Shown one piece after another: positions 51,407 to 55,587 of a stretch of 64,000 nucleotides of DNA; positions within the stretch are counted from its first letter, which is position 1, and each line of letters opens with the position of its first letter. Position numbers and translations under genes: made by a program. This DNA is from Pseudomonadota bacterium. Lineage in GTDB: Bacteria > Pseudomonadota > Alphaproteobacteria > Sphingomonadales > Sphingomonadaceae. Under the pieces are notes generated by a model, which made no database searches, was not told the origin of the DNA, and saw nothing but the letters and a program-made list of their open reading frames with translations. The stretch spans positions 1 through 64,000 of the forward strand of contig CAUJIW010000096.1 in assembly GCA_963205175.1 (NCBI GenBank). Reading direction: 5' to 3'.

Positions 51407-51456
51407 CGACACTGGGGGTGTGGGGCTCGGAGGTTCGAATCCTCTCGTTCCGACCA
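51407..51456 (+). pseudogene. 3' fragment of tRNA-Pro (GGG)
   Basis: Structure runs in order: anticodon arm CGACA-CTGGGGG-TGTGG (anticodon GGG, one mismatched pair), variable loop, T-arm GGAGG-TTCGAAT-CCTCT, acceptor 3' strand CGTTCCG, discriminator A, then CCA. The 5' acceptor strand CGGAACG and a D-arm are absent from the sequence to the left, so this is not a complete tRNA. Such 3' tRNA fragments are the hallmark of an integrase attachment site or its remnant. A lower-GC islet follows directly. Confidence 0.75.
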
Positions 51457-51594
51457 ATTTTTCCTAACAATTAAAGTCACTTACGCGAACACCCTTTTGG
51501 GACACTGAGCCGCCACTGGCGCACTTCAAGCGTATTTCTAGCACCGCCGCTGAAATGCTGCGCATATGACCTCATGAGAGGGGGTGCGTTGACC

Positions 51595-52305
51595 ATGCAG
51601 ATTGGAACCAATTCGAGTGCCGCACCGAATAAGATGTGGCGATATATGAAATTTTCCCGCTTTCTGTGGATGCTTCAACGCAAGCAACTATGGCTTTCCA
51701 GAGCCGATCTGTTGGGCGACCCTTGGGAAATGGCACTAGCGGGCAACCAACTTCAGCACGTCATCCAGCACCATCCGCCTCCGCAGCTACCGTTAAACGG
51801 CGGGCCGATTGAATCTGCCATAGAGCGTGCCATGCGGATTATCCCGAAGTGGCGCAAAACGACCTTCGTAAATTGCTGGCGCGCGTCAGAACATGAATCT
51901 CACGCGCTCTGGCGGATTTACTGTGGGTCAGCGGAAGGTGTCGCACTCGAAACCACCTACGACAAGCTCGTTGCATCGCTGCATGGTCCCCAGCTCTTCA
52001 AAGTATCATATGAAAACCCCGGTAGCGCCAAGCGGACCCCCACACGAGAAGACCTCATAACGAAGAAGCGGCCCCCATTTGAATATGAGCAAGAGTTTCG
52101 AATCTTGCTGACGAATGAGGATGCCAGTGAAGAGAGCGGCCTTCCTTTGGACTGGCCTCCAGAAGAACACCTTGTCGGCATCCGAGTGCATCCCGAGGCT
52201 GACGATTCCTTTATGCAGACGGTTGTGGCTGCTGTCACCGACTACGCCCCCGCCTTGAAGGACTGGGTCATATGGTCGGACATGCGAGCGCCGCCGCCCG
52301 TGTAG
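51595..52305 (+). CDS. DUF2971-like protein in low-GC islet
   Basis: A 236-residue soluble protein of unknown function. Features fitting the DUF2971 family are WLSRADLLGDPWEMA near the start, TTFVNCWRASEHESHALWRIY and GVALETTYDKL in the middle, and PPFEYEQEFRILL near the end, i.e. the W-R-x-Y-G-Gly-Val-Ala and E-E-x-R patterns. Codon use and base composition are clearly less GC-rich than the neighbours, marking recent transfer. DUF2971 genes are common in accessory and defence-rich regions. ATG 51595 has GGGGG upstream; an ATG seven codons earlier is possible. Confidence 0.75.
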   Translation: MQIGTNSSAAPNKMWRYMKFSRFLWMLQRKQLWLSRADLLGDPWEMALAGNQLQHVIQHHPPPQLPLNGGPIESAIERAMRIIPKWRKTTFVNCWRASEHESHALWRIYCGSAEGVALETTYDKLVASLHGPQLFKVSYENPGSAKRTPTREDLITKKRPPFEYEQEFRILLTNEDASEESGLPLDWPPEEHLVGIRVHPEADDSFMQTVVAAVTDYAPALKDWVIWSDMRAPPPV

Positions 52306-52329
52306 TGGCAGCACCCCACGCCCGAGGGT

Positions 52330-52381
52330 GCAGAATGCGGCTGGAATTTCCGGGGACAGTATACCTATTTTGACATTCTGC
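52330..52381. repeat. inverted repeat upstream of REP-associated transposase
   Basis: GCAGAATG (52330-52337) and CATTCTGC (52374-52381) are perfect 8-bp inverted arms around 36 nt. Inside lie GGAATTTCC (52343-52351) and GTATAC (52359-52364). Folded, it could present a stem-loop as bound by HUH/Y1 transposases, which sit next to their targets. It abuts the transposase gene start at 52404 and the right end of the low-GC islet. Confidence 0.55.
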
Positions 52382-52403
52382 GCCTGCTGTGACACGGTGG
52401 GCC

Positions 52404-53117
52404 ATGGCCAGACTCGCCCGTATCGTCCTGCCCGATGTTCCTCATCACGTCACCCAGCGCGGCAACCGTCGCCTGCCGGTGTTCTTCCATGACGACGACC
52501 GTGAGCTTTACCTCGGTCTGCTGGCCGAGGCGGCGCGGGCCAGCGACACCCGCTGCCTCGCCTGGTGCCTGATGGACAACCACGTCCATCTGGTGCTGGT
52601 GCCGCGCACGGCGGACGGCCTGCGCGCGACGCTGGGCGAGGCGCACCGGCGCTACACCCGCCATGTCAACTTCCGCGAGGGCTGGCGTGGCCACCTGTTC
52701 CAGGGCCGTTTCGCCAGCTACCCGATGGACGACGGCCACCTGATGGCGGCGGTGCGTTATGTCGAGCAGAACCCGGTGGCGGCGGGGCTGGTGGCGACGG
52801 CGGCCGACTGGCACTGGTCGAGCGCGCGCAGCCATGTGGCGGGCAAACGGGTGGCGGACGATCCGCTGACCGATGTCGCGGCGCTGGGCCGGCATGTGCG
52901 CAACTGGCGGGCGCTGCTGCGCCGGGGGATGGCGGCGGGCGGGCTGGACGCGGCGGCGGTGGAGGCCATCGAGGCGCGGCTGCGCACCGGCCGGCCGCTG
53001 GCCGACCCGGACTGGATCGCCGCCCGCGAGGCCGAGGTCGGCCGGGCGCTGGCGCCGCGCAAGCCGGGGCGCAAGCCGGGGCGCAAGCCCGGCGGCAGGG
53101 CGGCGACATCACCCTGA
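52404..53117 (+). mobile_element. REP-associated tyrosine transposase (Y1_Tnp / IS200-like HUH family)
   Basis: Single-strand DNA transposase-like protein of 237 residues. The HUH motif is NHVHLVLVP and the catalytic Tyr lies in HRRYTRHVN, matching the Y1_Tnp domain in about residues 1-140. LPDVPHHVTQRGNRRLPVFF and GHLFQGRFASYPMDD are the typical RAYT segments. The C-terminus has a KPGRKPGRKPGG basic repeat. Composition is as GC-rich as the core genome, so it is long-resident. It stands between the DUF2971 islet and clpA. Confidence 0.9.
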
Positions 53118-53141
53118 ATCGCCGCCCGGGCCTTTCTCCCT

Positions 53142-53170
53142 CTTGATTGCCGGGCAAAAGCGTCCAATCT
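53142..53170 (+). promoter_or_regulatory. possible heat-shock promoter of clpA
   Basis: CTTGATT (53142-53148) and TCCAATCT (53163-53170), separated by 14 nt, resemble a sigma-32 -35/-10 pair (consensus CTTGAAA and CCCCATNT), with five of seven matches in each. The position, 53 bp before clpA, fits a promoter for a protease gene induced by heat, but a chance match cannot be ruled out. Confidence 0.35.
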
Positions 53171-53223
53171 TTCTGGCATGGGTTCGGTCTCACCCCCGCG
53201 GCTGACCCCACGGGAGTGCGTAG

Positions 53224-55587
53224 ATGCCGTCCTTCTCCAAGCAGCTCGAACAGACCCTGCACAAGGCGCTGGCGGAAGCCGGGCGCCGCCGGCACGAATA
53301 TGCCACGCTGGAACATCTGCTGATGGCGCTGGTCGGCGACCGCGACGCCGCCGCGGTGATGCGCGCCTGCGGCGTCGACATCGACGAACTGGGCCAGCAG
53401 GTCAGCCAGTATCTCGACACCGAGCTGGACTCGCTGAAGGCCGAGGACGGCGTCGAGCCCTCCCCCACCGCCGGCTTCCAGCGGGTGGTGCAGCGGGCGA
53501 TCCTGCATGTGCAGTCGTCCGGCCGGGAGGACGTGACCGGCGCCAACGTGCTGGTGGCGCTGTTTTCCGAACGCGAGAGCCATGCCGTCTACTTCCTGCA
53601 GCAACAGGACATGACCCGGCTGGACGCCGTGTCGTTCATCTCCCACGGCATCGCCAAGACCGGCACCGCCGAGCCGCGCCGGGTGCGCGGCACCGCCGAT
53701 GAAACACCGCCGCGCGACGAACAGGAGCCGAAGGGCGCCAAGGGCAAGGGCCAGGCCAAGCCCCAGGATTCGGCGCTCAAGCAGTTCTGCGTCAACCTCA
53801 ACGACAAGGCGCGTACCGGCAAGATCGACCCGCTGATCGGCCGCGAGGCCGAGGTCGAGCGCACTATCCAGATTCTCTGCCGGCGCTCGAAGAACAACCC
53901 GCTGTATGTCGGCGATCCCGGCGTCGGCAAGACCGCCATCGCCGAGGGCCTAGCGCGCAAGATCATTGAACATCAGGTGCCGGAAGTGCTGGAGCCGGCG
54001 GTCATCTACGCGCTGGACATGGGCGCGCTGCTGGCTGGCACCCGCTATCGCGGCGACTTCGAGGAGCGGCTGAAGGCGGTCGTCACCGAGCTGGAGGCGA
54101 TGCCGCACGCCATCCTGTTCATCGACGAGATTCACACGGTCATCGGCGCCGGCGCCACCTCCGGCGGCGCCATGGACGCCTCCAACCTGCTGAAACCGGC
54201 GCTGTCGTCGGGCGCCATCCGCTGCATCGGCTCGACCACCTACAAGGAGTTCCGCTCCCACTTCGAGAAGGACCGGGCGCTGCTGCGCCGGTTCCAGAAG
54301 ATCGACGTCAACGAGCCGTCCGTCGAGGACTCGATCAAGATCATGATGGGGCTGAAGCCCTATTTCGAAGAGCACCACAAGGTGAAGTACACCGCCGAGG
54401 CCATCAAGTCGGCGGTGGAGCTGGCGGCGCGCTACATCAACGACCGCAAGCTGCCGGACAAGGCGATCGACGTCATCGACGAGGTCGGCGCCTCGCAGAT
54501 GCTGGTGCCGCCCAACAAGCGCAAGAAGGTCATCGGCGTGCGCGAGGTGGAAGGCGTGGTCGCCAAGATCGCCCGCATCCCGCCCAAGTCGGTCTCCACC
54601 GACGACAAGAAGACGCTGGCCAACCTCGACGGCGAGCTCAAGCGGGTGGTGTTCGGCCAGGACAAGGCGATCGAGGCGCTGGCGGCGGCGATCAAGCTCA
54701 GCCGCGCCGGCCTGCGCGAGCCCAACAAGCCGATCGGCTGCTACCTGTTCTCCGGCCCCACCGGCGTCGGCAAGACCGAGGTCGCCAAGCAGCTCGCCGA
54801 ACTGATGGGCATTCCGCTCACCCGCTTCGACATGTCGGAATATATGGAGCGCCACTCGGTCAGCCGGCTGATCGGCGCGCCGCCGGGCTATGTCGGCTTC
54901 GACCAGGGCGGCCAGCTCACCGATGCCGTCGACCAGCACCCCCACTGCGTGCTGCTGCTCGACGAGATCGAGAAGGCCCACCCGGACCTGTTCAACATCC
55001 TGCTGCAGGTGATGGACAACGGTCGGCTGACCGACCACCACGGCAAGACCGTCGACTTCCGCAACGTCGTGCTGATCATGACCACCAACGCCGGCGCCGC
55101 AGAGATGGCCAAGGATGCCATCGGGTTCGGCCGTTCGACCCGCGAGGGCGAGGACGAGGAGGCGATCAGGCGGATGTTCGCGCCGGAGTTCCGCAACCGT
55201 CTGGATGCGGTGATCCCGTTCGACTATCTGCCGACCCCGGTGGTCGCCCGCGTCGTCGACAAGTTCATCCTCCAGCTGGAGATGCAGCTGGCCGATCGCA
55301 ACGTTCACATCGCGCTCACCGACGAGGCCAAGGACTGGCTGACCGCGCGCGGCTACGACCGGCTCTACGGCGCCCGGCCGATGTCCCGTCTGATCCAGGA
55401 AGAGATCAAGAAGCCGCTGGCCGACGAGCTGCTGTTCGGCAAGCTGGTCAACGGCGGCGAGGTGCGGGTACATCTCAAGGACGACAAGCTCGCCTTCGAG
55501 ATCGTGCCGGCGGCCCCCAGTGCCAAGGCAAGCAAGGGAGGGGCCAGCAAGGGCGGCACCCGTGGCAAGCCGAGGATCGAGGCCTGA
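53224..55587 (+). CDS. clpA: ATP-dependent Clp protease ATP-binding subunit ClpA
   Basis: AAA+ unfoldase that feeds substrates into ClpP. The 787-residue protein has N-terminal repeats (about 1-145, KALAEAGRRRHEYATLEHLL), AAA+ module 1 with Walker A GDPGVGKTAIAE near 230 and LFIDEIHTVIGAG, AAA+ module 2 with GPTGVGKTEVAKQ and LLLDEIEKAHPDLFN, and the ClpP-docking tripeptide IGF in DAIGFGR. It lacks the ClpB middle coiled coil, so ClpA is certain. GGGAG precedes the ATG. The usual neighbour clpS is not upstream; the transposase gene lies there instead. Confidence 0.96.
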   Translation: MPSFSKQLEQTLHKALAEAGRRRHEYATLEHLLMALVGDRDAAAVMRACGVDIDELGQQVSQYLDTELDSLKAEDGVEPSPTAGFQRVVQRAILHVQSSGREDVTGANVLVALFSERESHAVYFLQQQDMTRLDAVSFISHGIAKTGTAEPRRVRGTADETPPRDEQEPKGAKGKGQAKPQDSALKQFCVNLNDKARTGKIDPLIGREAEVERTIQILCRRSKNNPLYVGDPGVGKTAIAEGLARKIIEHQVPEVLEPAVIYALDMGALLAGTRYRGDFEERLKAVVTELEAMPHAILFIDEIHTVIGAGATSGGAMDASNLLKPALSSGAIRCIGSTTYKEFRSHFEKDRALLRRFQKIDVNEPSVEDSIKIMMGLKPYFEEHHKVKYTAEAIKSAVELAARYINDRKLPDKAIDVIDEVGASQMLVPPNKRKKVIGVREVEGVVAKIARIPPKSVSTDDKKTLANLDGELKRVVFGQDKAIEALAAAIKLSRAGLREPNKPIGCYLFSGPTGVGKTEVAKQLAELMGIPLTRFDMSEYMERHSVSRLIGAPPGYVGFDQGGQLTDAVDQHPHCVLLLDEIEKAHPDLFNILLQVMDNGRLTDHHGKTVDFRNVVLIMTTNAGAAEMAKDAIGFGRSTREGEDEEAIRRMFAPEFRNRLDAVIPFDYLPTPVVARVVDKFILQLEMQLADRNVHIALTDEAKDWLTARGYDRLYGARPMSRLIQEEIKKPLADELLFGKLVNGGEVRVHLKDDKLAFEIVPAAPSAKASKGGASKGGTRGKPRIEA

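Follow-up and report, generated by a model that had tools for sequence, protein, structure and literature searches.

The locus described here lies in a stretch of 64,000 nt (hereafter the window) from the genome of a member of the Sphingomonadaceae (GenBank assembly GCA_963205175.1, contig CAUJIW010000096.1), where a tRNA-Pro(GGG) gene is represented by its 3' half alone, which borders a short islet of low-GC DNA (Table 1). The fragment is 48 nt long and reads ACA CTGGGGG TGT ... GGTTCGAATCC ... CCGACCA. To its left is GC-rich DNA following purB, and the islet to its right extends for about 0.9 kb at 55% GC. The GC fraction drops from 0.74-0.76 before the fragment to 0.53-0.58 directly after it, and is back to about 0.70 near position 52400. 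A similar step is seen in codon usage, the DUF2971 gene having a GC3 of 0.62, whereas purB, clpA and the transposase gene next to the islet reach 0.90-0.94. In its composition the islet is foreign. The original prediction had described about 0.9 kb of less GC-rich DNA with a DUF2971-like gene directly after the fragment, and had proposed a plot of GC and codon usage across the locus; the GC profile and Pfam bear out the description, and the plot gave both the drop in GC and the low GC3. The islet itself therefore stands as predicted, with the exception of its end, which is to be placed not at 52305 but at about 52345, the REP-associated transposase unit starting at 52346.

Table 1. Features of the tRNA-Pro(GGG) fragment, the low-GC islet and its right-hand neighbour (window coordinates).
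Feature	Position	Strand	Remarks
tRNA-Pro(GGG) 3' half of Sphingomonadaceae type, orphan	51409..51456	+	From ACA and the anticodon loop through the encoded CCA
Presumed crossover core CTGGGGG, in the anticodon loop	51412..51418	+	tRNA identity starts there, or a few bases off, in 34 orphan loci
A+T-richer leader, fragment to gene	51457..51573	+	Starts ATTTTTCC, similar to what follows several tRNA-Pro(GGG) genes of sphingomonads on their 3' side
DUF2971 gene, 243 aa	51574..52305	+	Alternative start 51592; sole gene seen in the islet; Pfam, PADLOC PDC-S31
Possible element right end	52324..52344	+	GGGTGCAGAATGCGG then CTGG; resembles the element ends of loci L217/L241
REP-associated tyrosine transposase unit	52346..53117	+	Neighbour outside the islet; coding region 52389-53117

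Neither ARAGORN nor Rfam finds a complete tRNA at the position of the fragment, and no tRNA-Pro 5' half lies nearby, in agreement with the claim that the 5' acceptor strand is missing. Compared with other genomes, the fragment best matches tRNA-Pro(GGG) genes that are intact, at 95-96% over 51-55 nt and with E ~1e-18, so that the predicted precise 3' fragment of tRNA-Pro(GGG), running from the anticodon arm to CCA, is confirmed. A genome-wide scan with a T-arm plus CCA pattern returned 32 sites, 31 of which coincide by position with tRNA genes (from a set of 38 genes found separately with RF00005), the remaining one being the window fragment, the sole orphan of this kind found in the genome by the pattern scan; the reversed pattern, used as a control, returned 0 sites genome-wide. 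Given the E value of its matches, its position as the single orphan among the 32 sites and the empty control, the fragment lies far beyond chance.

The intact tRNA-Pro(GGG) of the host, which the original prediction had proposed to locate elsewhere in the genome, was found on contig C167 (9057-9133). Over the 45 positions from CTGGGGG to CCA, the fragment differs from this gene at 8, from the tRNA-Pro(GGG) of G450, the relative closest in ClpA, at 7, and from the commonest tRNA-Pro(GGG) of the Sphingomonadaceae at 2. In its T-stem and in the 3' strand of its anticodon stem, the fragment agrees with the family-standard gene, and the bases following the CCA (ATTTT) resemble those of several family-standard tRNA-Pro(GGG) genes. 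Since the fragment is so much nearer to the family standard than to the host gene, it is xenologous, having arrived with imported DNA; in other words, it is part of the tRNA-Pro gene of another sphingomonad, brought in with foreign DNA. An attR scar left in place in the host's own tRNA-Pro is ruled out by the 8 mismatches. In contrast, an ordinary attR orphan (L213) agrees letter for letter with the corresponding half of the intact tRNA in G487, apparently the same genome.

A search of 397 family genomes found no DNA of the islet, and in 40 relatives its protein has only weak matches of 33-37%, which excludes an islet conserved among relatives. No close relatives of the DUF2971 protein were detected in the genome contigs or viral contigs searched, no second copy of the islet in the genomes searched, and neither the exact fragment nor the fragment-plus-flank patterns in the viral contigs; these absences hold for the genomes searched. 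Around the islet there is neither a second att copy nor a direct repeat, the matches between its flanks being short, of low identity and of a sort usual in GC-rich coding DNA. From a functional perspective, the match of the islet protein to DUF2971 (PF11185) is barely over the Pfam cut-off (22.2 vs 22 bits), and the PADLOC candidate defence model PDC-S31 gives 1.8e-19 (68 bits, best stretch residues 92-137), with three more PDC-S31 models matching at 3.1e-9 to 5e-5. Homologues with 44% identity are carried by Bradyrhizobium plasmids, beside HipA, Abi-family, DUF87 and AAA/HNH genes. A defence (anti-phage) role of the gene would be plausible; PDC-S31 is named in no paper of the literature searched, and a single-sequence fold of the protein (pLDDT 45) was unusable.

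The tRNA-Pro(GGG) gene was surveyed in 84,980 species genomes by means of a pattern requiring the 3' half and forbidding two conserved bases of the 5' half. This orphan scan returned 34 loci, nearly all of them in Sphingomonadales and a few in Azospirillum and Nitrospirillum, with no complete tRNA in the fetched stretches; among viral contigs, the general orphan pattern found one contig, matching an Azospirillum locus (L239). In all 34 orphans the sequence switches from unrelated element ends to tRNA at or next to the CTGGGGG of the anticodon loop, and the window fragment starts at this same crossover. The ORF adjoining the orphan on the left is a tyrosine integrase in 29 of the 33 cases tested, usually with an arm-binding domain, a result that upholds the earlier claim that 3' tRNA fragments mark integrase attachment sites. 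In these ordinary attR scars the element and its integrase are 5' of the fragment, which represents the end of the host gene displaced by integration, and to the right comes the host's own tRNA flank, often of low GC for the first 0.5 kb. One pair of sites, occupied at L220 (where the fragment follows the element) and empty at L170 (where the tRNA is intact), has the same flank downstream of CCA and displays the mechanism of integration. The 34-locus pattern is that of standard tDNA integration with a crossover in the anticodon loop (Islander, PMC4383910), and tRNA-Pro(GGG) is in frequent use as an integration site among Sphingomonadales. The integrase-bearing elements observed at this gene (L213-L246) belong to several distinct families, distinguished by their end sequences. 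An odd tRNA-like remnant of another kind, a T-arm plus CCA piece after a long G run, was seen near a tRNA-Lys gene in G486 (L278, ~3864, minus strand).

The window locus differs from these ordinary scars in that the foreign DNA is on the opposite, 3' side of the fragment. Moreover, a profile search that recovered all its positive controls (33/33) finds no integrase of these families on the whole 73-kb contig (C96), as the original prediction had claimed for this locus, and the contig has a single tRNA, for Ser, which lies in the window, and no regenerated tRNA-Pro. On the right, the bases preceding the REP unit are CGAGGGTGCAGAATGCGG-CTGG-A. The CTGG site at 52341 shows a 14/17 match to the L217/L241 element end and is tied best among the 1152 CTGG sites of the window (top 0.5%), in a pairwise comparison for which this site was picked after looking; with a profile of many element ends it ranks 30th of 1152. 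The putative right end is without the arm region of 110-190 bp (the integrase-to-core spacing) usual in intact elements. A right end at 52341 is, on this resemblance, suggestive.

The neighbour beyond this site is the REP-associated transposase unit. Its transposase gene matches Pfam Y1_Tnp (1.4e-7) and NCBIfam REP_Tyr_transpos (8.9e-17, below its cut-off), and an 85% similar copy of the unit on contig C46 starts at the counterpart of 52346, the terminus ATTTCCGGGGACAG being common to both; shorter matches to the leader of the unit, GGGGACAGTATACCTATTTTG, were noted on C1 and C95. As purB and clpA are at separate places in the family genomes compared, the islet has no direct empty-site comparison there, and no empty site of it was found. 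The clpS gene is immediately upstream of clpA in the close relatives G450 and G007, while in the genome of the window it is on another contig (C21, L210). From the separation of purB and clpA in relatives and the displacement of clpS it follows that the islet sits at a lineage-specific junction. The separation of clpS from clpA, seen at window positions 53118-53224, is a lineage-specific rearrangement bordering the islet.

The best reading of the fragment and the islet, to which a probability of about 0.55 is given, is that they are the att half borne by an element specific for tRNA-Pro, together with a single-gene remnant of its cargo, which underwent recombination at a secondary site and of which the integrase was lost; the locus would thus be the eroded remnant of a mobile element of a known kind. 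The parent would be an integrative element that normally enters the tRNA-Pro(GGG) of Sphingomonadales by a tyrosine-recombinase crossover in the anticodon loop, and the 48-nt piece would be the tRNA 3' half carried in its attachment site. We infer that all or part of the element recombined with the chromosome at a secondary site outside any tRNA gene, where a target resembling ACACTGG lay between the REP-transposase unit and the end of purB, and that the chromosome was so joined at CTGGGGG to the foreign tRNA 3' half of the element and to its first cargo, the PDC-S31-like DUF2971 gene. The integrase and the rest may have been lost subsequently, or the integrase may have been supplied in trans. 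If 51412-52340 was inserted, the expected empty site would be GCCCCGACACTGG joined to AATTTCCGGGGACAGTATACC. At a non-tRNA site, the element's side of attP would be expected to yield a foreign 3' half with foreign DNA after it, and the ACA preceding the core also matches the tRNA, as expected of a secondary site, three bases being weak evidence. Of the possibilities offered by the original prediction, namely a decayed element, an att scar or a satellite insertion, an att-derived mark of a decayed or satellite element is retained in view of the shared crossover and of an islet unseen among the family genomes, while a simple scar of the host tRNA falls with the mismatches.

Part of this evidence could also be accommodated by other histories. 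The islet could be a chromosomal fragment of another sphingomonad, comprising a tRNA-Pro 3' end or an attR scar and a flank with the DUF2971 gene, acquired through recombination of the illegitimate or homologous type, without any site-specific step in this genome; the often low GC of the host flank to the right of ordinary attR scars and the lack of an att repeat around the islet are consistent with this, but such DNA was found in none of the 397 family genomes and a random break would have fallen on the site-specific crossover just by chance, so that this origin is considered unlikely. The position of the locus at a synteny break, with clpS beside clpA in G450 and G007 and on a different contig here, would suit an attR scar left by an element once present in the tRNA-Pro of this very lineage and then relocated by a chromosomal rearrangement. 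This seems quite improbable for a fragment that departs from the tRNA of the host and, nearly as much, from that of G450, and whose left neighbour is GC-rich DNA beside purB with no sign of element DNA.

The third possibility, again with small odds of being right, is that the islet is not a remnant at all, but a complete miniature element of about 0.93 kb without integrase, in which an imported tRNA 3' half and a short right end enclose a single candidate defence gene, and that it was moved in trans by the integrases of tRNA-Pro elements; the empty site would in that improbable case be ACACTGG joined to AATTTCCGGGG. The islet is indeed bounded by CTGGGGG at 51412 and by CTGG at 52341, with its top 0.5% resemblance to a right end; on the other hand, no second copy was found and the right end has no arm-type region. 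A partial parallel comes from G007 (L200, contig C1, ~2065391), where a tRNA-Pro(GGG) 3' fragment directly follows an esterase-like gene and is itself followed by 2.3 kb of low-GC DNA with no integrase, this insert being flanked by a 102-bp direct repeat (98%) of the 3' end of the preceding gene. However, the G007 insert has different genes and another kind of flank, and its assembly is 86% complete, so that it is to be taken as a lead rather than a confirmation.

Among known systems, the closest in mechanism are the Islander-type genomic islands, which insert into tRNA genes and leave displaced 3' tDNA fragments (PMC4383910). As in these islands, the window fragment begins at the anticodon-loop subsite and adjoins foreign DNA, and tyrosine integrases act in this way at the tRNA-Pro(GGG) of sphingomonads. 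Unlike them, the window has no integrase and no restored tRNA at the other end, its fragment is not identical to the host tRNA, and the foreign DNA is 3' of the fragment. The islet is also comparable to a cis-mobilizable element (CIME), that is, a decayed ICE or IME retaining attL and attR (PMC5704250), in that it consists of an att half and a short remnant of cargo and lacks genes for integration or transfer; of the two att halves in the definition, one is secure here and the other suggestive, and the islet is tiny, with one gene and with no functional element recognized around or beside it. Finally, the attP of Escherichia phage Eeyore (PP925821) has the same part of tRNA-Pro on mobile DNA, immediately beside the phage integrase, which in the window has no counterpart; this arrangement may be regarded as a precedent for element-borne halves.

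What the locus adds is that a lone tRNA fragment can be traced to an element rather than to the host by comparison with the host's own tRNA. The islet is ordinary in kind, and the more useful part is the frequent use of tRNA-Pro(GGG), seen in the 34 orphan halves, most of which adjoin a tyrosine integrase. Should such small cargo units lacking an integrase recur, they would constitute a quiet route for single defence genes and, if the miniature-element explanation were true, defence genes could spread like cassettes to non-tRNA sites.
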